DNA of 64,000 nt, from the NCBI RefSeq assembly GCF_016925495.1, contig NZ_CP070491.1:1-64000 (forward strand), given 5' to 3'. Origin of the DNA: Methylococcus sp. EFPC2 (GTDB lineage: Bacteria; Pseudomonadota; Gammaproteobacteria; Methylococcales; Methylococcaceae). How positions within the stretch are numbered: the first letter of the stretch is position 1; each line of letters opens with the position of its first letter. This document shows positions 12,021 to 35,552 of this stretch, piece after piece. The translations under genes were made by a program, and so were the position numbers. The notes below the pieces were generated by a model. That model ran no database searches. It was not told the origin of the DNA and saw only the letters and a list, made by a program, of their open reading frames with translations.

Positions 12021-12040
12021 CTCGATCGTCCAGTACCCGC

Positions 12041-13798
12041 ATGGAACAAGAAGAAAACGTCAAAACTATCGCCGAGTACCTCGAGGTACTTAAACGGCGA
12101 AAGTACATAGCGCTGGTTTCATTTGTAACAATCAGCTTCCTGGGATTTGTGTTGGCGATGAAGTTACCGCCGGTGTATCGCTCGTCAGCCACCATCTTGA
12201 TCGAGGACCAGCAGATTCCTCGCAGCATGGTGCAAACCACAATTACCGATTTTGCCGACAAACGCATAGAGCTCATCAAACAGCGTGTGATGACGCGGGA
12301 TCGGATACTCGGCATCATTCAGAAACATAAACTTTACCTCGACGATCGCGACAAGCTGGTACCCAGCGAACTCGTAAAACGTTTTCAAGAGGATACAGAA
12401 ATCCAGATGATCGCTGCCAATGTAGCGGACCCCCAGCGCGGTAGCGGAAAAGCCACGATCGCGTTCACCATATCGTTCAGCGATCGGCTGCCAAATGTGG
12501 CGCAAGGGGTTTCGAATGAATTGGTGAGCTTATTTCTCGAAGAGAATACCCGTGTGCGGGCCCAGCGAGCGGCCAAAACAACGGAGTTTCTCAATGAAGA
12601 AGCTGAAAAGCTTAAACACGAAATCCTGATGCTGGAAACCCGGATTGTCGATTATAAAGCCAAATACGGCAAGAGTTTGCCGGATATGTTGCAGGTTAAT
12701 CTCACCGCCGTAGAACGAACCAATGAATCGCTCAGGCAGACCGACAACGACATTCGGCTTGCTCGTGATCGCATTACGTATCTTTCTGATGCGCTGCTGC
12801 AAGCAAAGGAAAACTCGGCCACTACCAGCGGCAGGCAGGCGGACAAACCTATGGGCAAAGCGGAGCAGATGCGATTGCTTAAATCGCAGTTTATACGGCT
12901 CAGTTCGCTTTATACGCCTTCTCATCCCGATGTATTAAGGGTAAAGCGGCAGATTGTCAGCATGGATCCCAGCTTTACTGGCGCGGAGGCTACGCGGAGC
13001 GATGTGAGTTCCGAATTACTTAAGGCGGAGGCGGAACTCGTTCTGTTGAAGGACAAGTATGCCGACAATCACCCGGATGTCGTCAAACTGCAACAACAGC
13101 TTGCTACCTTGAGGCAAAAGGCTGACGCGGCGGCGACCCAAGATGGGAATGATTCGGAAAACACGGTCAAAGGGGACCCCGCCTATTTGTCACTATCCAA
13201 TCAGCTCCTTAGCACTCAGCATGAGCTGGAGAACTCGCTGAAACGTAGGGAGGAGTTACAAGGCGACCTGCGGGAATTGCAGGCCCGAGTCGACCAAACC
13301 CCCTTGGTGGAAAAGCAATATGCCGAATTGCAGAGAGATCGCCAAAATAGCCTGAATAAATATGCGGAGCTGGAAGCTAAGAGCCGAGAGGCCAAATTGG
13401 CTCAGACATTGGAAGAGGAGCAAAAGGGCGAGACCTTCACCCTGATCGAGCCCCCTGTAGCGCCAGACAAGCCCGAGAAACCTAACCGCAAAAAAATTAT
13501 CGCGCTGGGTGCGGGAGTTGGCTTAGGGACCGGCTTGGCACTCATGATTTTGCTGGAGCTTCTATATGAAAGAGTGCGTGGACCAAAAGCCTTGGAACGC
13601 ATCGCCGGGATGGCTCCGTTAGTGGTTATTCCATATATAGAGACCCCGGCAGATATAAGAAAACGCAAGGCCCAAGTACAGCTCACAAGTATTGTAATCG
13701 GGGGAGCAATTGTCGCCATCACACTACTGACTCATTTTTATGTTATGCCTTTAGAACAAATTGGGGCGGCCGTAGTAGTGAAGATAGGTCGGCTATAG
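12041..13798 (+). CDS. Wzz-type chain-length determinant (GNVR domain)
   Basis: A 585-residue polysaccharide co-polymerase. An N-terminal cytoplasmic tail and membrane helix (IALVSFVTISFLGFVLAM) lead into the Wzz domain. Long periplasmic coiled coils (about 190-470) follow, with a GNVR-like block near LVEKQYAELQRDRQ, then a helix near 485-505 and a last helix (TSIVIGGAIVAITLL). It ends without a kinase domain; the kinase is the next gene. It would set chain length and couple the inner-membrane polymerase to the outer-membrane channel. It begins 20 bases after the barrel gene. Confidence 0.88.
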   Translation: MEQEENVKTIAEYLEVLKRRKYIALVSFVTISFLGFVLAMKLPPVYRSSATILIEDQQIPRSMVQTTITDFADKRIELIKQRVMTRDRILGIIQKHKLYLDDRDKLVPSELVKRFQEDTEIQMIAANVADPQRGSGKATIAFTISFSDRLPNVAQGVSNELVSLFLEENTRVRAQRAAKTTEFLNEEAEKLKHEILMLETRIVDYKAKYGKSLPDMLQVNLTAVERTNESLRQTDNDIRLARDRITYLSDALLQAKENSATTSGRQADKPMGKAEQMRLLKSQFIRLSSLYTPSHPDVLRVKRQIVSMDPSFTGAEATRSDVSSELLKAEAELVLLKDKYADNHPDVVKLQQQLATLRQKADAAATQDGNDSENTVKGDPAYLSLSNQLLSTQHELENSLKRREELQGDLRELQARVDQTPLVEKQYAELQRDRQNSLNKYAELEAKSREAKLAQTLEEEQKGETFTLIEPPVAPDKPEKPNRKKIIALGAGVGLGTGLALMILLELLYERVRGPKALERIAGMAPLVVIPYIETPADIRKRKAQVQLTSIVIGGAIVAITLLTHFYVMPLEQIGAAVVVKIGRL

Positions 13799-20549: not shown

Positions 20550-21890
20550 ATGTCGACGTCAACTATTGCTCAGACTCGCCTGCGTGGCAGGGTTATTCAA
20601 GCCGGGTTCTGGTGGGTCTCTGGTTACACGGTAAATCAGGTCTTGCGATTTGCAGGCAACCTCATTCTGACTCGACTTTTGTTTCCTGATGCATTCGGTC
20701 TCTTGGCTATCGTTCAGACGGTCATACTCGGATTCACGATGCTCTCGGATATGGGGGTTGCTCCTTGCATCGTCCAGAACAAGCGGGGCGATGATTCAGC
20801 GTTTCTAAATACCGCCTGGACGATACAAGTAGTCCGAGGTTGTCTGCTGTGGGGTTTGTTGTGGATCGCATCGAAGCCATCAGCGGCATTTTATGAGCAG
20901 CCCCTTCTGGCGGAATTGTTGCCTGCAGCCGGGTTAACCGCGCTCATCACGGGATTTAACTCAACGAAACTCGCGACCGCCGACCGTCATTTGGAAGCCG
21001 CGCGAGTCACGCTCATCGACCTCGGTTCCTATGCATTTGGCTTAGTGATCACTGTCCTTTGGGCCTGGGCCGAACATACGGTATGGGCTTTGGTTTGGGG
21101 TAGCGTCATTGGCGCGGTGACGAAGATGTTTGCCAGCCACCTTGCGCTGCATGGCGTGAAGAATTGGTTTCATTGGGATGACGCATCGGCTCGAACTCTG
21201 TTTGGCTTTGGGCAATGGGTGTTTGTCAGCTCTCTGATCACATTTCTTGCGGGAGAGGGAAACAAGTTGTTGATCGGCGCCATGTTGGATATTCATCAAC
21301 TCGCTTTTTACACCCTGGCGAGCACCATGAATGTCATGTTCATGCAGGCTTGCCAGCAGGTTGCAGCGAAGGTCCTGTTTCCATCTTATGCAGAAATTAT
21401 CCGGAACCACCCGGAGCGACTTTATGGTGCGCTTGAGAAAGGCAGGCTCGCGATCATTCTGCCGGGCTGGCTCGTTGCCGTGTTCTTCGTATTTCTCGGC
21501 GATACGGTGATGCGGCTGTTTTATGACGCGAGATATGCGGATTCCGGCACCATGTTACAACTGCTTGCTATCGGCTCCCTGAGCGCTGTGATGAGTTTGT
21601 CATATGCCGGTGTTCTAATGGCAAAAGGGATGGTTGGCAGAAGCGCAATGCTCCAGGCTGTTCAGGTATTGATTCAAATTGGAGCCATGTTGGTGGGGCA
21701 TCAGCTTAGTGGGGTATATGGCCTGATGGTAGGTTTGGCAGTGGCCAATTGGATCGTGTATTTCGTCGTGGCTATAGTATTTGCGCGATTATCTCTCTGG
21801 CACCCGAGAGTCGATCTACCTTTCCTTGGGATGTCGGCGGTGGTGTTATTTCTTGCAATAAATTATGGCCTATTACCGACTCGCGGGTGA
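20550..21890 (+). CDS. Wzx-like oligosaccharide flippase
   Basis: A 446-residue MOP-superfamily flippase of the Polysacc_synt type. It starts RVIQAGFWWVSGYTVNQVLRFAGN, then LTRLLFPDAFGLLAIVQT, a classic N terminus. About 12 helices follow, with Arg-rich cytoplasmic loops. It would move lipid-linked repeat units to the periplasmic face. The ATG at 20550 follows a 150-base spacer. The stop nearly touches the next gene (3 bases), which starts an uninterrupted run of glycosyltransferases. Confidence 0.9.
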   Translation: MSTSTIAQTRLRGRVIQAGFWWVSGYTVNQVLRFAGNLILTRLLFPDAFGLLAIVQTVILGFTMLSDMGVAPCIVQNKRGDDSAFLNTAWTIQVVRGCLLWGLLWIASKPSAAFYEQPLLAELLPAAGLTALITGFNSTKLATADRHLEAARVTLIDLGSYAFGLVITVLWAWAEHTVWALVWGSVIGAVTKMFASHLALHGVKNWFHWDDASARTLFGFGQWVFVSSLITFLAGEGNKLLIGAMLDIHQLAFYTLASTMNVMFMQACQQVAAKVLFPSYAEIIRNHPERLYGALEKGRLAIILPGWLVAVFFVFLGDTVMRLFYDARYADSGTMLQLLAIGSLSAVMSLSYAGVLMAKGMVGRSAMLQAVQVLIQIGAMLVGHQLSGVYGLMVGLAVANWIVYFVVAIVFARLSLWHPRVDLPFLGMSAVVLFLAINYGLLPTRG

Positions 21891-21893
21891 GTT

Positions 21894-22712
21894 ATGTCGG
21901 TTGATATCCTAATGATCACTTGGAACAGATTCCATTACGCTAAGCGCACTATCGACAACCTGCTGGCGACGAATGACGACTTCAGGCTTTATTGGTGGGA
22001 TAACGGGTCTTCGGACGGCGTGGCGGAATATATTTCGGCTCTCGAAGACCCAAGAATCGTGCTCAGGCATAAGCATGATTCGAATGTGATGCAGGCGGTT
22101 CCGACACGTTGGTTCCTGGAGCAAAGCAAGGCGGATGTCATCGGCAAAATCGATGATGACACGCTGGTTCCAGATGGCTGGATCAAAACGATACGGCCGG
22201 CCGTCGAACGGCATGACAGACTGGGTATGGTGGGGTGTTGGACATTCTGGCCGGAGGATTTCGAGAGGAACGCCGGGGTTGCGCAGAAAAAGATACGGGG
22301 ATTCGACCCACATCGGGTTCTCTCGAATCTCGGCATAGGTGGTACCGCTTTTCTGATGAAAAAATCGCTGGCATTGAAGTATTTGATCAAGAGCCACAAT
22401 GGCACGGCATTTCCGATCGATCGGGCAAAAATGTCCGCAGAGGGATACTGCAGCGGGTGGTACTACCCCTTGATATGGGCGGAGCACATGGATGATCCAA
22501 GATCGGAGTATTGCCTCGGCTACGACGAAAGCAGCGGGGGCATGTCGGCGCTTTCGGCAAAGGTGAGAGGGTTCAAAACGCAACAGGAATTTCTAAACTG
22601 GATAAAGACCGATGCCGACAGGATTCTTGATGCCGATACGTCAGTACAAATAAAAAAGTACAAGTTTGATAACTCCATACTCGGTCGGGTCATGAGAAGG
22701 CTGAGGCGATAA
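21894..22712 (+). CDS. GT2 family glycosyltransferase
   Basis: A 272-residue cytoplasmic GT-A enzyme. The N-terminal VDILMITWNRFHYAKRTID gives the nucleotide-binding strand, and the metal-binding DxD lies in IGKIDDDTLVPDGW. A C-terminal helical tail has basic residues that may touch the membrane. It begins 3 bases after the flippase stop and ends 7 bases before the next gene, so co-transcription is likely. Donor and acceptor are unknown. Confidence 0.82.
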   Translation: MSVDILMITWNRFHYAKRTIDNLLATNDDFRLYWWDNGSSDGVAEYISALEDPRIVLRHKHDSNVMQAVPTRWFLEQSKADVIGKIDDDTLVPDGWIKTIRPAVERHDRLGMVGCWTFWPEDFERNAGVAQKKIRGFDPHRVLSNLGIGGTAFLMKKSLALKYLIKSHNGTAFPIDRAKMSAEGYCSGWYYPLIWAEHMDDPRSEYCLGYDESSGGMSALSAKVRGFKTQQEFLNWIKTDADRILDADTSVQIKKYKFDNSILGRVMRRLRR

Positions 22713-22719
22713 ACCCATC

Positions 22720-23904
22720 ATGAAAAAAATGCTAGTGGGTTACGTGCCGGAGTCATTTCCGCAAGTTTCGGAGACGTTTGTCATAAACGAAATATGGGGC
22801 ATGTTGGAGCGAGGTTACGCGGTTTGCGTAATACCGAGATTGCACGTGCCTGTCGTTAGCGGAATGCATGACCGATACTATGCTATTAGGGGGGCAATCG
22901 ATCTTGTGAATTTCCAAGGCGCTATGTTTTCGTTATCGGCCTTCCTGATCGGTTGTTTATATGGAGGTCAAATAAGACCCCGAATTAGGCTTGTCAGTAT
23001 GGCTCGGCATTTCAGGAACGCCGTCGGCATCGCAAAACACTATATCCGTCTGGCGAGCGCGAGGCCTGATGTATTGATTACCCATTTTGCTTACGACAAT
23101 GCGGTGGCCAGTTCACTTTATTCCCAAAGGAATAACGTCAAAAATATATTATGGATGCACGGCTCGGATATTCATACAGTGCCTCATCGTAGCCTTAAAT
23201 GGATAACTAATAACTGTGCGGCAATTGTGACAAATTCGATGCACTCGCGTCGTCTCATCCGGGAGCTGGGCATTGATGTACCTATCCACGTTTCGTCACT
23301 TGGCGTAAACCTTTCGCGGTTCGATGTCTCGGATAATGCAGACAAACATGTCCGGCCCGTGATCATTTGCGTTGCTCGATTAGGGCATGGGAAGGACCAC
23401 ATGTTCCTTCTACGGGTGTTTGCGTTAGTCAAGAAGGCTTTGCCCAAGGCGGAGTTATGGCTCGTTGGTGATGGACCCAATCGAGAGAAGCTCGAACAAT
23501 ACGTTTGTGATCTGAATATCCAGGATGTGGTTTTTCATGGAAATCAACCTCAAGAGACTGTGTCCTGCATGTTGAGGCAGTCGTGGGTTTGCGTTTTATT
23601 TAGTGACATGGAAGGTTTGGGCGTGGCCTTGTTGGAGGCGCATGCGAGCGGGGTACCATGCCTATGCAATTCAGTCGGAGGAATGCCAGAGGTCGTCAGT
23701 GATGAAGAAACTGGGTTTGTAATCGATAAGACGGCTGACGATGCGGAACGATCGGCGGCCGATAGATGCGTACAGTTGCTTTCGAATGACGAACTAAGAA
23801 AAACCATGGGTGAGAAAGCAAGATCGAGGGCCGAATCTCATTTCTCCGAGGACCTTCATTTTGAAATGATGGACCGCCTCGTTAAGCAGATAACGGCGCG
23901 ATAG
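22720..23904 (+). CDS. GT4 family glycosyltransferase
   Basis: A 394-residue GT-B enzyme. The N-terminal domain (GYVPESFPQVSETFVINEI) binds acceptor, and the C-terminal Rossmann domain (VARLGHGKDHMFLLRVFALV; LWLVGDGPNREKLEQ) binds the sugar nucleotide. The family E-x7-E motif is in SDMEGLGVALLEAHASG. Its N terminus resembles that of the later GT4 at 32106 (YFINQYPAVSHSFIRREI), so both may act on related acceptors. ATG at 22720. Confidence 0.88.
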   Translation: MKKMLVGYVPESFPQVSETFVINEIWGMLERGYAVCVIPRLHVPVVSGMHDRYYAIRGAIDLVNFQGAMFSLSAFLIGCLYGGQIRPRIRLVSMARHFRNAVGIAKHYIRLASARPDVLITHFAYDNAVASSLYSQRNNVKNILWMHGSDIHTVPHRSLKWITNNCAAIVTNSMHSRRLIRELGIDVPIHVSSLGVNLSRFDVSDNADKHVRPVIICVARLGHGKDHMFLLRVFALVKKALPKAELWLVGDGPNREKLEQYVCDLNIQDVVFHGNQPQETVSCMLRQSWVCVLFSDMEGLGVALLEAHASGVPCLCNSVGGMPEVVSDEETGFVIDKTADDAERSAADRCVQLLSNDELRKTMGEKARSRAESHFSEDLHFEMMDRLVKQITAR

Positions 23905-23917
23905 CGGTGATCGTCCG

Positions 23918-24937
23918 ATGATGCATAGCGCCAAGAAAAGGGTATGGGTGGTGATAGTTAACTATCGTGCGCCGGATCTGGTTATCGATTGTCTGCGTTC
24001 TTTTTCGGCTACGGACTGGAATTTGCGCAATGGATATGTCGTGGTGGTAGACAATAATTCGGGTGATCGTTCCGAGCAAATGCTCTCTGACTTCATCGCT
24101 CGAAGTGGCTTGTCATCCTGGGTTAGCCTGGCCACTCAGGAGCGTAACGGCGGATTCGCCTATGGCAATAACGCCGCCCTACGCATGGCCTTGGGGGGGG
24201 AGGCGCCACCGGATTATGTGATGCTGCTCAATCCGGACACGATACTCCGCTCCGGCGCGATCCAGACCCTAGTGGAATTCATGGACGGGCACCCCCAGGT
24301 CGGCGTCGCCGGCAGTCTATTGGAGACACCCGAAGGCGGCGTGGACTGTTCGGCTCACCGGGTGCATTCCCCCCTGAGCGAGTTGAACGACGGCGCGCGG
24401 TTGGGCGTATTGAGCCGATTGCTACGTGGCTATGTGGTTTCCGAGGCGCCGCGCATGAAGGCTCATGCCTGTGACTGGGTTTCGGGGGCTAGCATGATCA
24501 TCCGGCGCCCTGTGATTGAAGACATTGGCCTTATGGACGAAGGTTTTTTCCTTTACTTCGAGGAGGTCGACTACTGCTGGCGCGCCAAGAATGCGGGCTG
24601 GGAATGCTGGTATGTACCCGAGTCGCGTGTGATGCATTTGGAAGGCGCGTCGACAGGCATCAAATCGGGAGCAAAGCGGCGCGCGAGGTATTGGTATGAC
24701 TCGCGCCGTTACTTTTTCATCAAACATTACGGTGTTGCGGGGCTGTTTTTCGCCGACGGCCTCTGGGCTCTCGGGCGTCTCACGTTTCTGTTGCGCCAAT
24801 GCTTACATCTCGGTGGCTCGAATAGGCCCGCAGAGCCCAAACGGTTTATGTTCGACTTGCTATGGGGCGATCTGCGTTTCTTCCTTCAAGGGCAATTATG
24901 GAAGTTAGGGCGCCCGACGCAAGGCCGGCGAGTATAA
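23918..24937 (+). CDS. GT2 family (rhamnosyltransferase-like) glycosyltransferase
   Basis: A 339-residue GT-A enzyme. It shows VVIVNYRAPDLVIDCLRSF, VVDNNSGDRSEQM, a metal site in MLLNPDTILRSG, and the catalytic region WVSGASMIIRRPVIEDIG followed by DEGFFLYFEEVDYCWRAK. This set is typical of the GT2 group often annotated as rhamnosyltransferases. The C terminus ends with amphipathic segments. The ATG is 13 bases after the previous stop. The sugar is unproven. Confidence 0.86.
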   Translation: MMHSAKKRVWVVIVNYRAPDLVIDCLRSFSATDWNLRNGYVVVVDNNSGDRSEQMLSDFIARSGLSSWVSLATQERNGGFAYGNNAALRMALGGEAPPDYVMLLNPDTILRSGAIQTLVEFMDGHPQVGVAGSLLETPEGGVDCSAHRVHSPLSELNDGARLGVLSRLLRGYVVSEAPRMKAHACDWVSGASMIIRRPVIEDIGLMDEGFFLYFEEVDYCWRAKNAGWECWYVPESRVMHLEGASTGIKSGAKRRARYWYDSRRYFFIKHYGVAGLFFADGLWALGRLTFLLRQCLHLGGSNRPAEPKRFMFDLLWGDLRFFLQGQLWKLGRPTQGRRV

Positions 24938-24977
24938 GCATGATCGCGACCAGTTGCACGAGGAGGAATAGCGTACC

Positions 24978-26216
24978 GTGGACATGAAGAATTCGTCGGA
25001 TCATGCCGCAAACGATAACAGGTCGGCGAACATGCGTTCAGGCGCATTTGACGTTATGTATGTCGAGGGTCCGGGCGACATTGTGGAATCCTTTCTCCGC
25101 TGGCATAGCCAACAGGATGTGGTTACGGAAACAGCAATAACCTTTAGTGGGCAGTTCTTCGATTATTGCGAGCAGAATTCGCTCCGTGCCTACGCTGTTT
25201 CCTATAGCAACGATACAAGAAAGGAGAGCACCGAACAGTTTCGGGTTGAAAACCGGCCAAAACGGATCTTTGGTGCCGGCGCTCTGTATCACTTTTCGCA
25301 AATCGTTTACGGGCTGAGTATTCTCGCAACGGCGATAAGGGTCCGCCCCAAAGCCTTGCATGTAACGTCCGGTGTGACCTATTGGTTTGTCTTGGCGCCT
25401 CTCAAATTATTAAACATCAGAATAGTTCCTCATTTTCACAATGCCTTATGGCCCAAGGGCAATCGTCCGCGTGATCCTATAAAACGAGTTTTATTGGCAT
25501 TGGATGGTTGGTTTATAAAGAATATCGCCTTTGCATCCGTATGTGTATCCCCGGAAGTCGAAAGGCAAATCAAGCAGCTAGCAAAAACAGACAAAATATC
25601 GGTGAATCAGTTTTGTGCGCAATTCCATCGACAGGATTTTGAAAATCGCCAGGTCCTTCTGAGGCATGATCAGAAACCATTTGTAGTGGTTTTCGCCGGG
25701 CGGGTCGAGCGTAACAAGGGTGTTTTCGACATTCTGGACATGGCGGATCGTCTACGCGATAAAAACGTGGTGTTCGAAATTTGTGGGGGTGGCTCGGCGC
25801 TGGAGGAGTTACGCAATGAGTGTACCCAGCGCAATCTCGAACTATTTGTGCATATTAGAGGGCAACTGGAACGCCCCGAGTTACTGAAGGCTTACCAGCG
25901 TAGCCATGTGGTCATAATCCCAACGCGGAGCGACTTAATTGAAGGTTTTGCAATGGTTGCTGCTGAGGCAATTTTGCTGGGGCGCCCAATCATCACTTCG
26001 GACGTTGTCCCGGCACTGGAAGTGTTAGGAGGCGCTGCGCTGGCGGCAAAGGCCGACGACATAGCGGATTATGTGGCGGCTATTCATAAACTGCTCCATG
26101 ATAAGGTTTTGTACGAACAATTGTGCGAAAACTGTATTCCTTTAAGAGAGCAATTCCTCAATGGTAAAAACGGTCTGACTATGACGCTTAATAATTTAAA
26201 TGGCAGAATGCCGTAG
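24978..26216 (+). CDS. GT4 family glycosyltransferase
   Basis: A 412-residue GT-B enzyme. A perfect AGGAGG (24961-24966) lies 11 bases before the GTG at 24978, which is why this start is used rather than the ATG at 24984. The donor-binding half contains VVFAGRVERNKGVFDILDMADRL in two parts and VFEICGGGSALEELR. The family E-x7-E region is IEGFAMVAAEAILLGRPII. The N terminus has an unusual polar head of about 25 residues. It is followed by a 204-base gap, which may mark an operon break. Confidence 0.83.
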   Translation: MDMKNSSDHAANDNRSANMRSGAFDVMYVEGPGDIVESFLRWHSQQDVVTETAITFSGQFFDYCEQNSLRAYAVSYSNDTRKESTEQFRVENRPKRIFGAGALYHFSQIVYGLSILATAIRVRPKALHVTSGVTYWFVLAPLKLLNIRIVPHFHNALWPKGNRPRDPIKRVLLALDGWFIKNIAFASVCVSPEVERQIKQLAKTDKISVNQFCAQFHRQDFENRQVLLRHDQKPFVVVFAGRVERNKGVFDILDMADRLRDKNVVFEICGGGSALEELRNECTQRNLELFVHIRGQLERPELLKAYQRSHVVIIPTRSDLIEGFAMVAAEAILLGRPIITSDVVPALEVLGGAALAAKADDIADYVAAIHKLLHDKVLYEQLCENCIPLREQFLNGKNGLTMTLNNLNGRMP

Positions 26217-26420: not shown

Positions 26421-27407
26421 ATGAAGTTAGGTATTGTGGTAATCGGCCGAAACGAAGGGGAAAGACTTCGTGGCTGCTTGAAATCCGTCAGTTCATCGGG
26501 TAGCGCAGTGATCTATGTAGATTCCGGGTCTACGGATAGCTCCGTTTTAATGGCGCGAAACATGGGGCTCAACGTTATTGAATTGGATCGCTCTTCCCCG
26601 TTTTCGGCGGCCCGAGCCCGCAATGAAGGCTTTGAGTATTTGCTTCGGCATTTTCCCGAGATCCGTTACGTGCAATTCATCGATGGCGACTGCACGCTCG
26701 CTCCCGGTTGGCTTGCCGCTGCCGAGGCGGCCCTTGACTGCTCCACCGAATGCGCGGCAATGATCGGTCACTTGCAGGAGCGGAACCCAGACGCGACGCC
26801 TTATAACCGCCTATGCGCCTTGGAATGGAAGTCGGTACCGGGCGTACTGACCGACTTCGGTGCTTTGGGCGGGATTTCGATGATTCGGGCCAGTGTGTTT
26901 CAGCAACTAGGTGGGTTTAATCAGGAGGTAATCGCCGGAGAGGACTCGGAGTTGGGTGTTCGCATGACTCTGGCAGGTTACAAGGTTATTAAAATCGATC
27001 ATGCCATGGCTGCGCACGATGCCGACATGCATCGGTTTATGCAATGGTGGAAGCGCGCTGTGCGCGGAGGCCACGCCATCGGTCAACGCGCTCACCTCAA
27101 TGGCAATTCGGCTGTAAGGGATTGCATTAAGGAGCGGAAAAGTACGTGGTTTTGGGGGGTAGGCCTTCCTCTGCTCACAGCTATTAGCGCAATTCCATCC
27201 AATAGTTTGAGCTTGCTTTTATTGGGAGGATATTTAGTGCTCGGCGTGCGAATTTTTCACTATCGGCATAGCCACGGAGATAGTGTAGCCGACGCGTTGC
27301 TTTATTCTCAATTCACGGTTCTTGGTAAGTTCGCCGGTGGCGTAGGTCTCATCAAGTTCTACTTGAATATGATGCTGAAACGCTATCACTTAATTGAGTA
27401 CAAATAG
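26421..27407 (+). CDS. GT2 family glycosyltransferase
   Basis: A 328-residue enzyme beginning KLGIVVIGRNEGERLRGCLK, with YVDSGSTDSSV and the DxD-like FIDGDCTLAPGW. The C-terminal half contains GEDSELGVRMTLAGYKV, then a membrane segment (LSLLLLGGYLVLGVRIF). This is the membrane-anchored GT2 type found in succinoglycan-like clusters. It uses an ATG at 26421 after the 204-base gap; the gap shows no other feature. Confidence 0.83.
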   Translation: MKLGIVVIGRNEGERLRGCLKSVSSSGSAVIYVDSGSTDSSVLMARNMGLNVIELDRSSPFSAARARNEGFEYLLRHFPEIRYVQFIDGDCTLAPGWLAAAEAALDCSTECAAMIGHLQERNPDATPYNRLCALEWKSVPGVLTDFGALGGISMIRASVFQQLGGFNQEVIAGEDSELGVRMTLAGYKVIKIDHAMAAHDADMHRFMQWWKRAVRGGHAIGQRAHLNGNSAVRDCIKERKSTWFWGVGLPLLTAISAIPSNSLSLLLLGGYLVLGVRIFHYRHSHGDSVADALLYSQFTVLGKFAGGVGLIKFYLNMMLKRYHLIEYK

Positions 27408-27486: not shown

Positions 27487-29610
27487 ATGACCAATAAAAA
27501 GTGGAAGGTTGGCCTGCTCGGTGCGGGCTATATATCCGAGGCGCACGCGCGCGCATTGCATGCCAACATGCATACCGAATTGAAAGCGGTCTGCGACCTT
27601 TCCCTCGGGCGGGCGGAAAGAGCTTCCAAGCTTTACGGCATCCCTCACGTATTTTCTTCTCTCGACGATTTGCTGAATTCCGATGTGGATGTCGTTCATG
27701 TGTTGTTGCCGCCCGATGCACATTTCTCGACGTGCAGGCGAATCTTGGAGTCGGGGCGGCATGCGTTGCTCGAGAAACCCATGGGAATAAATGCCATCGA
27801 GTGTCGAGAGTTGGTCGAGATTGCGGACCGGAAACAGGTAAAACTAGGGGTCAATCACAATTTTTTGTTCCTTCGCGGGTATGAGAAATTGCGCCGCCAC
27901 GCGAGAGATGGGACCTTGGGTAAACTCGATCAGGTAACCATTAATTGGTTATTCCCGCTAGGTTTTATTAAGTTCGGTCCCTTCGACAACTGGATGCTGA
28001 GGGAACCACAAAACTTGTTTTTTGAATTAGGACCGCACTTGGTGGCATTTATGCTTGACTTGGTCGGCCCGATGGAACGAGTGTCGACGGACATATTCAA
28101 ACCCATCGATCTACCGGGTGGCGCGAGGACATATAGGCGGTGGCACGTTCACGGCGTCAACGCGGATACCGGTGTCGATTTAAATCTTTCGGTTTTACCC
28201 GGATGCACTGATCGCTCCATCAGCGTGCGTGGGCATGCGGCTTCCTCTAGATACGACTTTGACCGTGACCTATATTGCTTGGACGAACCCAGCGGGGCTG
28301 GGGTGCATTTCGATAGTTTCCTGACTGCGGAATACATTGCGCTGCAATACGCGACAAACGGATTGAGGAACTTCGGCCGTTCGATATTGGGGAAATTCAA
28401 GAAGGCTCCTTCGGCAAACCCCTACTTTGAAAGTATCGAACGCAGCGTCGCAGCATTTTACCAGGGGCTGCCGAATGATTTGGATCCTCGCCTGGATGGC
28501 AGGTTCGGGGTGCAGGTCATTGAAACCTGTGAGCAGATCGCCAAGCACGCCGAGTTCGCCGCGCCCGCGCCGTCGACTCAAGCCTGGGTCGTTTCTCCTC
28601 CATTGAGTCGGCCTACCGCGTTGGTCATCGGCGGCACCGGCTTTATTGGAAAATATGTGGTGAGGGCACTCGTTAACCGTGGGCTCGGCGTGAGGGTAGT
28701 CACTCGCGGGGGTAGGGCCGGCCAGATCGTTTTGGCTGGCTTGCCGGTGGAGTTGGTGCAGGGTGATTTGGCTGATCCGGTTTTCATGGATGAAGCGATG
28801 AACGGGATAGATACCGTTTACCATCTGGCTAAAGCCGAGGGGAAAAACTGGAATGACTATTACACGCAGGATGTTCTGGTTACCAAAAACATCGGTGAGT
28901 GCGCATTGGCTCGAGGCGTTAAGCGCTTCATCTATACCGGCACTATCGACTCCTATTATTCCGCCGATGCGCATGCCGTCATCACATCCGATACTCCCCT
29001 GGATCCCAATATAGCTCGTCGTAATCTCTATGCCCGATCCAAGGCGGCATGCGAGTCCTTGCTCATGGAAATGTTCAGAACCAAGGGCTTGCCTTTAATC
29101 ATCTTTCGGCCAGGCATAGTCATCGGTGAGGGCTGTCCACCCGCTCATTGGGGTGTCGGTATGTTTGAATCGGATACGCGAGTTCAGTTGTGGGGTGATG
29201 GCACTAATAAATTGCCGTTTGTCTTGGTGGAGGACGTTGCGGAAGCACTCGTGATGGCGCTTGACAAGCCCGGTATAGAGGGTCAGGCATTCCTACTCAC
29301 GGATGCCCCTCTGCTCAGTGCACGGGAGTATGTCGACATCGTATCGAAAGAAATAGGAACTAAGTTGCGAGTCGAGCCTACGCCAGCCTGGAAAATATTT
29401 ATTAGTGATTGTATCAAGGAAGCCGCGAAGAATATTATTCGACATCCTAACCGCCGTATCCCTAGTTATCGTGATTGGGACTCCCGAAGTCACAGGGCTC
29501 TGTACGATAGTTCGAAAACAAAAAAGGTTCTCGGTTGGTCCCCTTCCGGGGATCGAGAGGATGTCATTCAACGCGGAATTATCCTGGCCGTGAGAGAGTT
29601 CATGCGTTAA
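27487..29610 (+). CDS. Gfo/Idh/MocA oxidoreductase fused to SDR epimerase
   Basis: A 707-residue two-enzyme fusion in one uninterrupted frame. Residues 1-~365 form a Gfo/Idh/MocA NAD(P)-dependent dehydrogenase: Rossmann start VGLLGAGYISEAHARAL, EKPMGINAIEC with the conserved Lys, and a C-terminal sheet domain. Residues ~377-707 form an extended SDR: ALVIGGTGFIGKYVVRAL, then the active-site Tyr515 and Lys519 in NLYARSKAACESLL. Each domain has standard family length with a linker of about 12 residues. In this setting the pair may make an unusual nucleotide sugar by consecutive oxidation and epimerisation or reduction; the substrate is unknown. Confidence 0.85.
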   Translation: MTNKKWKVGLLGAGYISEAHARALHANMHTELKAVCDLSLGRAERASKLYGIPHVFSSLDDLLNSDVDVVHVLLPPDAHFSTCRRILESGRHALLEKPMGINAIECRELVEIADRKQVKLGVNHNFLFLRGYEKLRRHARDGTLGKLDQVTINWLFPLGFIKFGPFDNWMLREPQNLFFELGPHLVAFMLDLVGPMERVSTDIFKPIDLPGGARTYRRWHVHGVNADTGVDLNLSVLPGCTDRSISVRGHAASSRYDFDRDLYCLDEPSGAGVHFDSFLTAEYIALQYATNGLRNFGRSILGKFKKAPSANPYFESIERSVAAFYQGLPNDLDPRLDGRFGVQVIETCEQIAKHAEFAAPAPSTQAWVVSPPLSRPTALVIGGTGFIGKYVVRALVNRGLGVRVVTRGGRAGQIVLAGLPVELVQGDLADPVFMDEAMNGIDTVYHLAKAEGKNWNDYYTQDVLVTKNIGECALARGVKRFIYTGTIDSYYSADAHAVITSDTPLDPNIARRNLYARSKAACESLLMEMFRTKGLPLIIFRPGIVIGEGCPPAHWGVGMFESDTRVQLWGDGTNKLPFVLVEDVAEALVMALDKPGIEGQAFLLTDAPLLSAREYVDIVSKEIGTKLRVEPTPAWKIFISDCIKEAAKNIIRHPNRRIPSYRDWDSRSHRALYDSSKTKKVLGWSPSGDREDVIQRGIILAVREFMR

Positions 29611-29740: not shown

Positions 29741-30943
29741 GTGTCGATACCGGTGCTTGCTGTCTTAGTGTGGATTTTAGCTTTGGCGGTACTATCGCCG
29801 ATGCTGGTGGTCATCTTGGAAATTTTCGGGGCGCTGATAAACAGAGAGCCGTCCCGTGTCGGGGGGGGCGCAGGTGCTTATCCGGCAACGGTGGTGCTAG
29901 TTCCGGCGCACAACGAAGAGGCCAGCATCCCTGTGACGCTGTCTTCGATCCGGGATGGCCTGCCGGAGAATTCCAGGATCTTAGTTGTCGCGCACAACTG
30001 TTCAGATGCGACGGCGCGTATCGCCCGCGGTGCGGGGGTTGAGGTGTTGGAAGCGAATGACGAAGGCAAGGGAGGCAAGCCGGATGCGCTGAAGGCGGGC
30101 CTGAGTGCGCTGGATGTTGATCCACCGGCGGTCGTAGTCATTATCGATGCCGATTGCCGCGTCGAGCCAGGCGCTATTGCGACGCTGGCCACAGCGGCGC
30201 ATGCGTTGAATTGGCCCGTGATGGGCGCATATACCTTCTCTCCCGCTGACGGCAGCGTGGGGATGGCGACGGTGTCGAGTCTGGCCATTCTTCTTAAGAA
30301 CTTCATCAGGCCGCTCGGTTTGCATTTCTTTGAACTTCCCTGTTTGCTCAACGGCTCCGGTTCTGCTTATCCGTTCGAATTGATCCGCCACGCCCCTCAC
30401 GGTGAAGGATCCATCGCGGAAGACTATCAACTGACGATCGACTTGTTGCGCCGCGGTTATCCGACGCGATTCGTGCCGGAGGCGAAAATTTACACCCAGC
30501 TTCCAAAGCAAATGGGCACGGCGTTGAAACAGCGTCGTCGCTGGGAACATGGCCATCTCTGGTTGGCACTTAGCAAGGCTCCTGTCTTGCTCTGGGAGGG
30601 CATAGTCAAAAGAAACCTGGACTATTGTGCCCTCGCCCTCGAGGTTTCCGTTCCGCCACTGGGTTTTCTTCTGTTGCTGTGGGGCGGGGTGCTCGGACTC
30701 ATCGTCGGCCTTTATCCCCTGCACGGACAATTTGGCGCGATGGTCACCGTGCTTGCGGGCGGGCTTGCGCTGATAGGCATGCTCGTTTTCAGCTGGCTCC
30801 AATTCGCCGGAGTCTCTCAAACACTTTCAGCCTTGGCGTCGGTTCCACGCTACCTGCTATGGAAGTTACCGATGTACGGCGCCTTTTTCCGGCGACGCGA
30901 AACCCGCTGGATGAAGACGGAAAGAGACAACGTCGCGTCCTGA
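29741..30943 (+). CDS. Membrane GT2 glycosyltransferase (QxxRW type)
   Basis: A 400-residue enzyme with an N-terminal membrane helix (VLAVLVWILALAVLSPMLVV). A GT2 core follows with VVLVPAHNEEASIPVTL, the metal site in VVIIDADCRVEPGA, the EDYQLTIDLL acid and the QRRRWEHGH motif. The C terminus has at least two more helices. QxxRW is shared with cellulose and hyaluronan synthases and marks inverting membrane GT2s. It could add a backbone sugar or act processively. It starts with GTG at 29741. Confidence 0.85.
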   Translation: MSIPVLAVLVWILALAVLSPMLVVILEIFGALINREPSRVGGGAGAYPATVVLVPAHNEEASIPVTLSSIRDGLPENSRILVVAHNCSDATARIARGAGVEVLEANDEGKGGKPDALKAGLSALDVDPPAVVVIIDADCRVEPGAIATLATAAHALNWPVMGAYTFSPADGSVGMATVSSLAILLKNFIRPLGLHFFELPCLLNGSGSAYPFELIRHAPHGEGSIAEDYQLTIDLLRRGYPTRFVPEAKIYTQLPKQMGTALKQRRRWEHGHLWLALSKAPVLLWEGIVKRNLDYCALALEVSVPPLGFLLLLWGGVLGLIVGLYPLHGQFGAMVTVLAGGLALIGMLVFSWLQFAGVSQTLSALASVPRYLLWKLPMYGAFFRRRETRWMKTERDNVAS

Positions 30944-31118
30944 GGGAGTTACGGGCGGGCTGGCGACCAAATCGGCTTAGCCCGGCTGGTTGCCCCCCAC
31001 CCCAAATCCAAATTCTTGGCTTATGCGATGGACGCGCCAGGCCGACTTACGCCGCATGCGCAGAACTGTCATGTTGATATGGAATAGTGTGAGGTTTACA
31101 AATGGAGAATCAAACACT

Positions 31119-32057
31119 ATGTCGTTGAGAATTACCGTGACGGGGGGAGCCGGGTTTCTGGGTTCTCATTTATGTGACCGTTTGGTGGCGGAAGGCCATG
31201 AAGTGCTTTGCGTCGACAACTTCTTTACCGGGCGGCGCGCCAACGTTACCCAACTTTTACCCAACGCGAATTTTGAAGTCCTACGCCATGATGTGACCTT
31301 CCCACTCTATGTGGAAACCGACCATATCTACAATCTGGCATGCCCGGCTTCGCCGATCCACTACCAGTTCGATCCGGTCCAGACCACCAAGACCAGCGTG
31401 CACGGCGCGATCAATATGCTGGGTCTGGCCAAACGGGTTAAAGCACGAATCCTCCAAGCCTCGACTTCCGAAGTGTACGGCGATCCGGAGGTTCATCCTC
31501 AGATCGAGTCGTATTGGGGGCGTGTCAATCCGGTTGGTCCGCGCAGTTGTTACGATGAGGGCAAGCGTTGCGCCGAGACCTTGTTTTTCGACTACCGCCG
31601 CCAGCATGGGCTCGACATCAAGGTCGTTCGAATCTTCAACACCTACGGACCCCGCATGGCACTCAACGACGGCCGAGTGGTGAGCAACTTCATCGTTCAG
31701 GCCCTCAAGGGGGACGACATCACGATTTATGGCGATGGCAACCAGACCCGCTCCTTCTGTTATGTGGACGACTTGGTAGACGGCTTCCTCAAAATGATGG
31801 GGACGGAAAACGGTTTCTGCGGCCCCGTCAACCTAGGTAATCCCGTGGAGTTCACGATTGCCGAACTGGCCGAGAAGGTCGTTAGCCTGTGCGGTGGGCG
31901 TTCCAAAGTCGTATACCAGCCACTCCCGCAGGACGACCCGCAACAACGCCAGCCGGACATCTCGGTGGCTCGCGAGCGATTGGAATGGGAGCCCAAGGTT
32001 GCGTTGTCGGATGGGCTCAAGGAGACCATAGGGTATTTTCGTAAAGTACTCGCTTGA
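31119..32057 (+). CDS. UDP-glucuronate decarboxylase (UXS-type SDR)
   Basis: A 312-residue extended SDR that converts UDP-glucuronate to UDP-xylose. Evidence is the NAD motif [10 protein letters not shown], the UXS hallmark [29 protein letters not shown], and the catalytic Tyr/Lys in [10 protein letters not shown]. The frame extends upstream to 30990, but the ATG at 31119, with GGAG at 31104-31107, starts the Rossmann fold properly. It would supply UDP-xylose for the polysaccharide. No UDP-glucose dehydrogenase is seen in the window, so UDP-glucuronate must come from elsewhere. Confidence 0.9.
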
Positions 32058-32105: not shown

Positions 32106-33326
32106 ATGCGCATCGCTTATTTCATCAACCAGTATCCCGCTGTAAGCCACTCCTTCATTCGTCGCGAGATTCTGGCCCTGGAAACGCTAGGTCTCGAGGT
32201 GCACCGCTTTGCGATCCGCATGGAGCGCAGCGGGGTCGTGGACGATGCTGATCTCAAGGAGGCCGAAGCCACGCGGCATATCGTCAAGACGCTTCCGCGA
32301 GAACTGGTTTCGATCCTGCTCAGGCAGGTTTTTTTCAATCCCGCCCGTTCAGTTCGTGCTTTGCTGTTCGCGATGCGCTTTGCGGCTCGCAGTGACAGAA
32401 AGCCGGGAAAAGCCCTGCTTTGTCTGATGGAGGCCTGTGTGCTCAGCGATTGGGCGCGCAGACAGGGCATCCGGCATATCCATGCCCATTTCGGGACAAA
32501 CTCCACCACCGTAGCCATGCTTGCCAGCGCCCTGGGCGGGCCGGGTTACAGCTTTACGGCGCATGGCCCGGAGGAGTTCGACAAGGCGGAATCCATCGGT
32601 TTGCGAGAGAAAATCGGGCACGCCCGCTTCGTCGTTGCCGTCTCGAGTTACGGCCGAGCTCAGCTGTATCGTTGGGCGGATTTCGACGACTGGAAGAAAA
32701 TCCACATCATCCATTGTGGCTTGGACGCGAGTTTTCTGAATGTACCGATCACTCCCGTGCCCGACCAGGTGAGGATCATTTGTGTCGGGAGGTTGAGCGA
32801 ACAGAAGGGTCAGATAATGCTGATTCAGGCCGTATCCAGACTGGTTGCGGAAGGGCTCTCGCTTAACCTCGTCTTGGTCGGCAATGGCCCGCTGCGTGGG
32901 GAGATCGAAAGGCTGATCGCCGAAAATGGTCTTTCCGCGCATGTCGAGTTGACCGGATCGTTAAGCGGAGAGCAAATCCGCGGGCGGATCGCGGATTCGC
33001 GTATTTTCGTGCTCCCGAGCTTCGCCGAGGGTTTGCCGGTGGTCATCATGGAAGCATTCGCATTGGGGCGGCCGGTTATCAGCACCTATGTTGCCGGGAT
33101 TCCGGAATTGGTGAGTGACGGCGTGAATGGCTGGCTGGTGCCAGCCGGCGCGGTGGAGGAACTGGTTTCCGCCGTGCGACTGGCACTCATGGCGACTCCG
33201 CGGGAGCTAAGCGAAATGGGGAGCGCTGGTCGACAGCAGGTTCTCGAACACTACGCGATCGACGCACAGGCTAGGAAACTCAGTGAATTGTTTCTTAAGG
33301 CTATCGAAACTGCCGACACGCCTTAG
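32106..33326 (+). CDS. GT4 family glycosyltransferase (WcaL-like)
   Basis: A 406-residue GT-B enzyme beginning RIAYFINQYPAVSHSFIRRE. It includes HAHFGTNSTTVAMLAS and the donor site RIICVGRLSEQKGQ, followed by VLVGNGPLRGEIERL, and carries the E-x7-E motif in PSFAEGLPVVIMEAF. The N terminus matches the group annotated as colanic acid WcaL. Its stop overlaps the end of a transposase-like relic on the other strand. It is the last glycosyltransferase before the exosortase, from which a 630-base spacer separates it. Confidence 0.88.
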   Translation: MRIAYFINQYPAVSHSFIRREILALETLGLEVHRFAIRMERSGVVDDADLKEAEATRHIVKTLPRELVSILLRQVFFNPARSVRALLFAMRFAARSDRKPGKALLCLMEACVLSDWARRQGIRHIHAHFGTNSTTVAMLASALGGPGYSFTAHGPEEFDKAESIGLREKIGHARFVVAVSSYGRAQLYRWADFDDWKKIHIIHCGLDASFLNVPITPVPDQVRIICVGRLSEQKGQIMLIQAVSRLVAEGLSLNLVLVGNGPLRGEIERLIAENGLSAHVELTGSLSGEQIRGRIADSRIFVLPSFAEGLPVVIMEAFALGRPVISTYVAGIPELVSDGVNGWLVPAGAVEELVSAVRLALMATPRELSEMGSAGRQQVLEHYAIDAQARKLSELFLKAIETADTP

Positions 33327-33394: not shown

Positions 33395-33962
33395 CTTCCG
33401 TGGACTCTGCCCTCTAGATCTTCGCGCAACGCTCAAGTTCGTCCTTATAGACGAATAGCGTGCCACTCCTTCGGGCCCGTCTGGCCGGGTTTCGAGTCCC
33501 AAGCATACGGAGTTCGCCGAGCGCGCAGGGTGAGGCCCACGCGCGGGACCGCCATCTCTTGGCTTATGAGCGAGCGATTTCATATTGATGTCATAACTTT
33601 GGGCCATAGTAGGCGGATATATCGTGCACTTGAGCGAACAGCTCATCTAAATGCCCTCCACTATCCTGAGTTTCTATGACCGTCTTAATCACATTTGACC
33701 CGGCTAATGCCACCCCTGGCGTAAGCCCTAACAGCGCTTGCGGCACGGTGCCTGCGAGGACTGTAACTCTGTCATGGGAAGACTCGTGTGGGGCGATCAG
33801 CCATGCGTTTCAGACGCTCCCCCTCTATTTCCCAATTCCGGTTAACAGGTTTCCGGCTTGGATTTAGGTCATAACGAATAAAACCTACCTAAACATGGCC
33901 GATTATTAAAAATAAACGACCACGCAGATAGTACAAAAGCCGGACCGCAAAGATTATTGCAT

Positions 33963-35552
33963 ATGAGTCTAAGCGTGAATCAAGAACAAAAAACATATTG
34001 GCGTTTAGGGGCGGCAACCTGGGGGGTTCTCGTGCTTACCCTATTGCTCGCGATCTGGTCATATTATGGCGGTCTTGCGAATTTGGTCGAGCGCTGGAAT
34101 GCCGAGGAGGAATACAATCACGGATATTTTCTTCCTCTCGTGACCCTGGTTTTTCTTTGGCAGCGGGGGGCAATACTTAAGACGCTAGATTTGCCACCAT
34201 CCTGGCATGGCCCAGTTCTGGTCGTAACAGCCTTGCTGATGTTAACAATTGGCGAACTAAGCGCAATATATTTATTAATCCATTACTCATTCGTCCTGCT
34301 GCTGATGGGCCTATCTCTCGCAGTTTTGGGATGGTCCGGTACGCGATACACTTTCGTACCCATCGGAATATTGGTATTCGCAATTCCAATTCCCTATTTC
34401 TTGGAGGCAACCGTCACCTCCAAATTACAGCTGATTTCCTCGACGCTCGGGGTTGCCTTGATCCGCCTGTTCAGCGTTCCTGTTTTCAGGGAGGGAAATC
34501 TCATCGATCTCGGCGTATTCAAGTTGGAAGTGATAGAAGCATGCAGCGGGCTTACCTATCTGTATCCATTACTCGGCTTTGGGTGTATATGCGCATACTT
34601 GTATGCCGGAAGTCCTTGGAAAAGAGCGCTCCTGATATTTTCCACCTTACCCATAGCGATATTGCTCAATAGCTTCCGAATAGGAATGATCGGGATATTA
34701 GTGAAATATTTCGGAGGAGATCAAGCGCGCGGTTTTCTCCATGATTTCGAGGGTTTCGCCGTTTTCATGGTATGCGTTGCAATATTATTTGCCGAAATGT
34801 GGGGATTGACATTGGTAGGTCGGGACCGACGTCCATTTGGTGAGGTGTTCGGACTCAAGTTTGAAGCGGATACGGCGGCCGGCAAGGCTGAAACCAGATT
34901 CCGCCGTCCGCCGAAACCACTAATTATATGCGCCTTGTCCGTTGCGGTGTCAGCGTCGCTAATACCTTCGTTGAATGCAAGGACGGAGGTAAGGCCAAGT
35001 CGCTCATACTTCTCTTCCTTCGCTCGAACAATTGGAGAGTGGCGTAGCCATCCTGGAACATTGGACGAGGCAACACTGAAAACTCTGGGGCTTACAGATT
35101 ATTTGCTGTCCGACTTCAGCAATGCCGCGGGTGAATCCGTAAACTTTTATGTCGCTTATTATGAATCGCAACGTAAAGGCGTGTCGCCGCATTCTCCAGC
35201 CGTTTGCCTGCCTGGTGGGGGGTGGCAAATCATGGATTTTCAGCGTAAAACCTTTTCGAGTTTAGCGCATAAAGAAAATATATTCGAGTTTAACCGAGTT
35301 GTTATCAACAAAGGAAAAAGTAAGCAGCTCGTGTACTATTGGTTTGAAGAAAGAGGTCGCATTCTCGCGGATGAATACACGGTAAAGTGGTATTTGTTTC
35401 GCGATGCTTTGTTAGACAACAGGACGGATGGCGCATTGGTACGCGTGACTACACCGATCATCGACGGCGAAGCGGATGAGGTTGCGGACAATCGCTTAAC
35501 TGATTTCATTTCCGGGGTATTACCTATTCTGCCAGAATTTGTTCCGCATTGA
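33963..35552 (+). CDS. Exosortase fused to EpsI domain (XrtD/XrtA type)
   Basis: A 529-residue inner-membrane transpeptidase-like enzyme. The N-terminal 300 residues hold about eight helices with the catalytic triad of exosortases: Cys194 in EACSGLTYLYP, Arg239 in LNSFRIGM and His260 in FLHDFEG. Residues ~340-520 are an EpsI domain (EWRSHPGTLDE; SPAVCLPGGGW). This fusion, together with VPxP tails on substrates, fits the VPLPA-CTERM-specific XrtD group. Exosortases cut their substrates at the PEP-like motif for transfer to the surface. The ATG at 33963 is used; a TTG lies two codons earlier. Confidence 0.9.
   Translation: MSLSVNQEQKTYWRLGAATWGVLVLTLLLAIWSYYGGLANLVERWNAEEEYNHGYFLPLVTLVFLWQRGAILKTLDLPPSWHGPVLVVTALLMLTIGELSAIYLLIHYSFVLLLMGLSLAVLGWSGTRYTFVPIGILVFAIPIPYFLEATVTSKLQLISSTLGVALIRLFSVPVFREGNLIDLGVFKLEVIEACSGLTYLYPLLGFGCICAYLYAGSPWKRALLIFSTLPIAILLNSFRIGMIGILVKYFGGDQARGFLHDFEGFAVFMVCVAILFAEMWGLTLVGRDRRPFGEVFGLKFEADTAAGKAETRFRRPPKPLIICALSVAVSASLIPSLNARTEVRPSRSYFSSFARTIGEWRSHPGTLDEATLKTLGLTDYLLSDFSNAAGESVNFYVAYYESQRKGVSPHSPAVCLPGGGWQIMDFQRKTFSSLAHKENIFEFNRVVINKGKSKQLVYYWFEERGRILADEYTVKWYLFRDALLDNRTDGALVRVTTPIIDGEADEVADNRLTDFISGVLPILPEFVPH

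Follow-up and report, generated by a model that had tools for sequence, protein, structure and literature searches.

For many enzymes that modify the sugars of bacterial slime layers no reaction has been assigned, which makes these sugars difficult to predict from sequence. This question is raised by a polysaccharide cluster of Methylococcus sp. EFPC2, in which one gene joins two putative sugar-modifying enzymes in a single chain. What would such a fused protein make, and on behalf of which partner? We analyzed the window, i.e. the whole stretch of 64,000 nucleotides (contig NZ_CP070491.1, positions 1 to 64,000), together with relatives of the fused protein in other genomes and plasmids. The features of the window are the following:

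20550..21890, + strand: Wzx-type flippase (Pfam Polysacc_synt_3)
21894..26216, + strand: four glycosyltransferases in the order GT2, GT4, GT2, GT4 (Pfam)
26421..27407, + strand: GT2 glycosyltransferase with a DGDC motif, the usual upstream partner (Pfam PF00535, alignment)
27487..29610, + strand: fused Gfo/Idh/MocA dehydrogenase - extended SDR protein, 707 aa (Pfam and fused relatives)
27487..28560, + strand: Gfo/Idh/MocA half, ~aa 3-358 (Pfam 7-124, VIA-align range, conservation)
28543..28611, + strand: linker, aa 353-375 (low pLDDT at 360-373)
28606..29607, + strand: extended SDR half, aa 374-707 (Pfam, half-domain model, conservation)
29741..30943, + strand: EpsU-like GT2, below cut-off (profile match)
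30990..32057, + strand: separate extended SDR (profile match)
32106..33326, + strand: GT4 glycosyltransferase, EpsE-like but below the cut-off of that model (profile match)
33957-35552: VPLPA-CTERM exosortase XrtD (533.8 bits, cut-off 400)

Five glycosyltransferases precede the fusion gene, and two more as well as the separate SDR come after it. The cluster is framed by an XrtA-type tyrosine autokinase-like protein (below cut-off), a WecB/TagA glycosyltransferase, XrtD and a PrsT-like TPR protein (413.9 bits, cut-off 312.2). A first-pass annotation had placed the gene in a glycosyltransferase setting, and the locus is indeed a glycosyltransferase/flippase cluster.

A second copy of XrtD is present in the genome of the window (G000:C1:2191284-2192822, 566.6 bits with its neighbours in frame), as is a third, weak relative (G000:C1:952562-953968, 155.2 bits). 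With three candidates scored per genome, XrtD passed its cut-off in at least 22 of 397 genomes. An obligate link to the fusion was rejected, since XrtD was above cut-off in only 3 of 14 fusion genomes (G000, G339 and G373); a match below cut-off was found in the fusion genome G137.

The reading frame starts with ATG at 27487, ends with a stop at 29608-29610 and contains no internal stops. The coordinates, the frame and the length of 707 codons that had been claimed were borne out. GFO_IDH_MocA was found at aa 7-124 (E 2.9e-25; 89.7 bits, cut-off 24) and Epimerase at aa 378-595 (E 2.9e-36) by Pfam, and the two domains, proposed at 1-~365 and ~377-707, were located at ~3-358 and ~375-707. For comparison we used 48 fused proteins, namely that of the window and those of 47 further loci, two of which abut the edge of a contig, L008 with its start and L065 with its end. 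The linker measures 17 to 34 aa over this set. A chance join or a frameshift, the latter raised at first reading, was rejected, as the frame was open across the join in all 48; and the same two-domain order recurs elsewhere, so the halves are not consistently split. The model of the full-length protein (pLDDT 67.8, pTM 0.51), which was based on an alignment of six sequences and had low confidence at aa 267-310, was too weak for a judgement on the domain interface or on channelling.

The first half aligned over ~aa 3-358 with solved Gfo/Idh/MocA structures at Z scores of 31.0-34.2 (VIA-align, 50 rows listed). Since complete structures were aligned over this range, it appears to have both a cofactor domain and a sheet domain. 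A C-terminal alpha/beta sheet domain was recognized by VIA-align on a model of moderate quality; the Pfam model GFO_IDH_MocA_C3 for the C-terminal part stayed below its cut-off (21.9 versus 27). The motifs of this half are D37, E96-K97-P98, E180 and H184. Asp37, Glu96-Lys97-Pro98 and His184 were invariant in 48/48 fused proteins, and Asp at position 180 was confined to four of them (L039-L042), the remaining 44 having Glu. In the window the codon of aa 180 lies at 28024-28026 and specifies Glu where the Gfo active site usually has Asp, the usual residue being the Asp four residues before the His.

Among the fold matches listed for the Gfo half were the sugar 3-dehydrogenases WlbA, GnnA, GenD2, KanD2 and DgpA. 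Within the same 50 rows and the same range of Z, equally good matches were given by inositol dehydrogenases, 1,5-anhydrofructose reductases and further enzymes, so that C3 is no more than the presumed position of oxidation. The best profile match was KanD2 (6jw6) and the third was DgpA1.

An acidic residue after strand 2 goes with an NAD-type pocket. By its place in the sequence Asp37, which follows strand 2, points to NAD in the Gfo half. This is backed by the PDB title of 4l8v, in which the A12K/D35S variant of a myo-inositol dehydrogenase is in complex with NADP; Asp35 of this enzyme corresponds to Asp37 according to our own placement.

In the second half the motifs are GGTGFIG, R407, T486, Y515 and K519. 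Gly382, Gly385, Gly388, Arg407, Tyr515 and Lys519 were invariant in 48/48 fused proteins, with Thr or Ser at position 486 in all of them. Intact Rossmann motifs in both halves and the pair Tyr515/Lys519 in the second had been read from the window; the cofactor glycines and both residues are kept throughout the 48. Because matches to the first half took up the Foldseek and VIA lists of the full-length model, a separate prediction was made for the SDR half (pLDDT 85.1, pTM 0.87). Its best structural match was gox2253 (3wj7) with Z 31.5 over 313 residues. Epimerase Mth375 (Z 30.6) was counted as tied with it, followed by MoeE5 and a UDP-glucose 4-epimerase (both Z 30.3) and by further epimerases at lower values; an NADP+-bound cinnamoyl-CoA reductase was also among the matches. 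With gox2253 best and epimerases tied or nearly so, "epimerase" would be best taken as a family label for this half. Since the half fits epimerases about as well as gox2253, statements on its cofactor type and direction are guesses.

Membership in two named families was rejected. The GalE model (TIGR01179) gave 57.4 bits against a cut-off of 262.3, even though the fold similarity to 4-epimerases is high, and the HpnA model (TIGR03466) gave 106.8 bits against 367.65, so the half is not HpnA. An arginine directly after strand 2 goes with an NADP-type pocket, whereas the NAD-binding 4-epimerases usually carry an acidic residue there. Arg407 after strand 2 therefore points to NADP in the SDR half.

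We give about an even chance to the reading that the fusion is a bifunctional sugar-modifying enzyme with an NAD-linked oxidation by the Gfo half, an NADPH-linked reduction or epimerisation by the SDR half and delivery of the product to the GT2. In a first step the Gfo half with NAD+ would oxidise a ring hydroxyl of a nucleotide-linked sugar, most likely at C3, via Lys97/His184. The SDR half, with Tyr515/Lys519 and the NADP-type pocket at Arg407, would then reduce the resulting keto sugar on its opposite side; alternatively, it would epimerise this sugar before reducing it. Either way an epimeric or otherwise altered NDP-sugar would be left. Use of NAD+ for the oxidation and of NADPH for the reduction would make the conversion one-way. 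As the predicted cofactor types differ (Asp37 NAD, Arg407 NADP), a shuttle on a shared cofactor is not favoured. In a third step the GT2 encoded directly upstream would transfer the product into the polysaccharide repeat. The link between the halves and that to the GT2 are the firmest part of this model, and substrate and product the weakest.

The reverse order has been considered as well: the SDR half would come first, as an epimerase or oxidase of UDP-sugars, and a keto intermediate would then be reduced by the Gfo half. Gfo-family sugar 3-ketoreductases act in deoxysugar pathways, and one of them, Sugar 3-ketoreductase 3rbv, was among the profile matches of the Gfo half; the SDR half in turn matches epimerases up to Z 30.6 as well as Pfam Epimerase. 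Arg407, however, is unlike the acidic residue of the NAD-binding 4-epimerases, and no 4,6-dehydratase was annotated within the 32 kb round the GT2-fusion pair on two Paracoccus plasmids, the rest of these genomes aside. We consider the reverse order unlikely.

The fused protein is scattered over bacteria. Fused relatives were found at five loci of genome_contigs, the values being 74% for Methylomonas lenta as well as for a gammaproteobacterial bin, 48% for a further bin and 43-44% for two Bradyrhizobium. Seven of 72,556 plasmid records carried it at 35-41% (Aquisphaera, Ruegeria, Shinella and Paracoccus); the loci of six of these seven matches were fetched, H4 being left out. In a sample of the phylum, matches to both halves occurred in at least 14 of 397 genomes, counting that of the window (at most two candidates scored per genome). 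Family f70 had such matches in at least 26 of 150 genomes (seven candidates per genome), the one in G510 breaking off at position 594 close to where the contig ends. We took f70 as Rhodobacteraceae-like on account of the grouping of its proteins with the Ruegeria and Paracoccus ones. Among 60 other genomes of the family and order of the window the fusion gave no match at 1e-30. This patchy spread suggests transfer.

Each half was also used as a profile over 219 genomes, with at most nine candidates scored per genome, so that the counts are lower bounds. The five best genomes for the Gfo half were G000, G127, G191, G137 and G242 (548.1 to 154.7 bits, the next one at 121.9), and the same five were the only ones to reach 1e-40 with the SDR half. 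All five proteins are fused. Purifying selection acts on both halves, as dN/dS was 0.06 to 0.26 in three near pairs: for first and second half, respectively, 0.06 and 0.10 between M. lenta and the 74% bin, 0.18 and 0.14 in the Shinella pair, and 0.26 and 0.17 in the Paracoccus pair. Between the window and Methylomonas lenta the synonymous sites were saturated.

The partner that recurs beside the fusion is the GT2. Of 47 loci, 46 had upstream DNA, and an orthologue of the window GT2 lay directly upstream on the same strand in 40 of these, with 8-325 nt between hit ends; since near relatives are included (two Paracoccus, two Shinella and L031/L033), these are not 40 independent events. It was missing upstream in L037-L042, the six least similar fused loci (24-31% identity). 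On the two Paracoccus plasmids the GT2-fusion pair is surrounded by unrelated annotated genes, except that a further glycosyltransferase gene lies ~3 kb away and that one hypothetical gene also occurs at the Ruegeria locus. The window GT4 has a frequent counterpart as second neighbour: of the 47 loci, many with short flanks, 28 had a homologue above 200 bits no farther than 3 kb from the fusion. At L038 a glycosyltransferase gene (11109-12221) shares 4 nt with the end of the fusion; at L037 another one (11105-12283) starts within ~30 nt of the aligned fusion end; the N-termini of these two downstream glycosyltransferases look alike.

The GT2 family was found in at least 28 of 397 genomes (five candidates scored per genome, ~8-10 kb fetched on each side). 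Eight of them carry the fusion and one, G206, a separate pair, and 19 have no Gfo match nearby. Hence the GT2 was rejected as an exclusive partner of the fusion, and GT2s of this family in general do not need its product. Two of the 19 showed a weak match to the SDR profile (24.5 bits at L136 and 63.5 bits at L144). The eight fusion genomes gave the eight best GT2 scores, with a profile that was built from fusion-linked GT2s.

On a tree of 61 rows the fusion-linked GT2s clustered, with 3 label changes compared with 17.1 after shuffling. A single origin was nevertheless not supported there. A smaller tree of 32 rows, with 12 of the 41 fusion-linked GT2s, had united them in one fork (SH-aLRT 93) that also took in one unlinked row, but this fork was absent from the 61-row tree with all 41. 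In the latter they formed two blocks with weak joining forks (33 and 65). At L134 (G327) a GT2 of the fusion subgroup was found with no match to the fusion in the fetched stretch, which is perhaps a loss.

The position of the GT2 also bears on a reading in which the fusion acts after transfer, on a lipid-linked sugar or on the growing chain, and the GT2 acts earlier. GenD2, KanD2 and DgpA act on glycosides, and KanD2 and DgpA1 ranked first and third among the profile matches of the Gfo half, with GenD2 among its best folds; moreover, the GT2 gene precedes the fusion gene in 40/40 linked loci. Against this stands the likeness of the SDR half to enzymes of nucleotide sugars, which would favour an NDP-sugar as substrate, and we regard action after transfer as quite improbable.

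Recurrent genes for a separate dehydrogenase, a separate SDR and a WecB/TagA-like transferase lie around the fusion in L030, L032, L034-L036, L066-L071, L013 and L016. Several such loci add a tyrosine-kinase-like gene, a GMC oxidoreductase, a phosphopantetheinyl transferase and a MupA/Atu3671-type monooxygenase, so that carrier-protein enzymes are present within the polysaccharide cluster there. On the Ruegeria plasmid (L012, 1-3727) adjacent genes for an SDR, an FAD oxidoreductase, GtrA and UbiA are located near the fusion. This group of genes resembles the epimerisation route of the two enzymes DprE1 and DprE2.

A separate-gene counterpart of the fusion was found in one distant genome, G206. 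Here dehydrogenase and SDR are encoded by separate genes in the same order as in the fusion and with overlapping frames; stop and start share ATGA if the first in-frame ATG is the start of the SDR. The G206 dehydrogenase was the seventh match in the list of the Gfo-half profile (114 bits). The locus also holds a GT2 homologous to that of the window (45.7% over 221 aa) and a homologue, at 32%, of the GT4 that starts at 32106 in the window. Because overlapping genes of the same order occur here together with the same GT2, the two halves would act in one pathway; this gene arrangement suggests that fusion is common and not obligatory.

Of the 47 loci, many with short flanks, 14 have a further dehydrogenase gene, and these 14 are all Rhodobacterales-like or Shinella. 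In 10 of the 11 loci with a scored separate SDR this second dehydrogenase and the SDR adjoin (hit gaps of -9 to 112 nt), and Ruegeria is the one in which they lie apart. The separate SDR of Shinella shares 32-36% identity with the SDR halves of L039-L042.

Both pairs were placed on quick IQ-TREE trees of the halves (SH-aLRT only, 22 of the 48 fused proteins). From the final trees we removed the SDR rows L097, L098, L099, L106 and L107, which were wrong, duplicates or of great length, and in place of L078 we used the L111 copy of that gene. Window-type fusions including L037 and L038 stayed together in the first half (97) and in the second (99), and so did L039-L042 (99 and 100). The G206 dehydrogenase joined L039-L042 (97) and the G206 SDR joined the separate Rhodobacterales SDRs (97). 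Since the separate Rhodobacterales/Shinella dehydrogenases fell among single-domain rows (fork 94) and not among fused ones, this second pair was not supported, as far as its dehydrogenase goes, as a split counterpart of the fusion and is at best analogous; its SDR grouped weakly with L039-L042 (86 and 72 in two trees). The tree histories of the two halves differ and do not form one simple history, and the program warned of meeting long branches.

The fusion by itself is no proof of channelling. It is very unlikely, in our opinion, that two independent enzymes of one pathway, with non-consecutive steps, were joined for co-expression without channelling, as in ArnA: joining is dispensable in G206 and the linker varies from 17 to 34 aa, but no other sugar-modifying enzyme is annotated beside the pair on the two Paracoccus plasmids, which leaves no local candidate for an in-between step.

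The preferred reading thus remains that of oxidation by the Gfo half followed by reduction or epimerisation by the SDR half. Judged from its recurrence in scattered bacteria, usually beside one GT2, the fusion probably builds an uncommon sugar for the slime layer of the cell. A narrower version is a hitherto uncharacterised sugar isomerase on one chain: an NDP-sugar would be oxidised at C3 in the Gfo half at the expense of NAD+, and its reduction from the opposite side would follow in the SDR half with NADPH. The resulting C3-epimeric NDP-sugar, for instance of the allo or gulo type, would go to a dedicated GT2, and both genes would form a two-gene cassette across Proteobacteria and Planctomycetota. 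In this full detail we hold it to be rather doubtful. Now that the two-domain enzyme is recognized, along with the transferase that usually accompanies it and a natural relative encoded by separate genes, direct tests can address which reaction it catalyses, whether fusion is needed and which sugar is transferred.

Fused nucleotide-sugar enzymes with several catalytic domains including an extended SDR are known from ArnA and plant RHM. These have other partner domains and no Gfo/Idh/MocA domain. A description of a Gfo-SDR fusion was not found among the open-access papers listed for it. In five annotated plasmid records the annotation names the second half only and hides the Gfo half; WP_168222334.1 and WP_306035513.1, for example, are fused proteins with the same GT2 upstream that are annotated as "NAD-dependent epimerase/dehydratase family protein" and carry no functional assignment.

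The UDP-sugar 3-dehydrogenases WlbA/WbpB and GnnA share with the fusion the Gfo-half fold over ~3-358 and the polysaccharide context, and WbpB is described as an enzyme that oxidises C-3' of a UDP-sugar with NAD+ (PMC10622841). In contrast to the window protein they are free-standing, have ~20% identity to the Gfo half and carry the usual Asp in place of Glu180. The aminoglycoside C-3'' dehydrogenases GenD2/KanD2 include the best profile match of the Gfo half, KanD2, and align at EKP and His; they are not fused, belong to antibiotic pathways, act on glycosides and also have Asp where the window has Glu180. GenD2 is described as a candidate for oxidation of a C-3''-hydroxyl that was tested by knock-out (PMC4340712). 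Nearest to the second half in sequence and fold are extended SDRs like gox2253 (3wj7), HpnA and cinnamoyl-CoA reductase, which are free-standing, unlike the fused protein. Both domains and fused nucleotide-sugar enzymes are already known; as for the pairing of Gfo and SDR, the five plasmid records with annotation give it no name other than that of an epimerase family protein.
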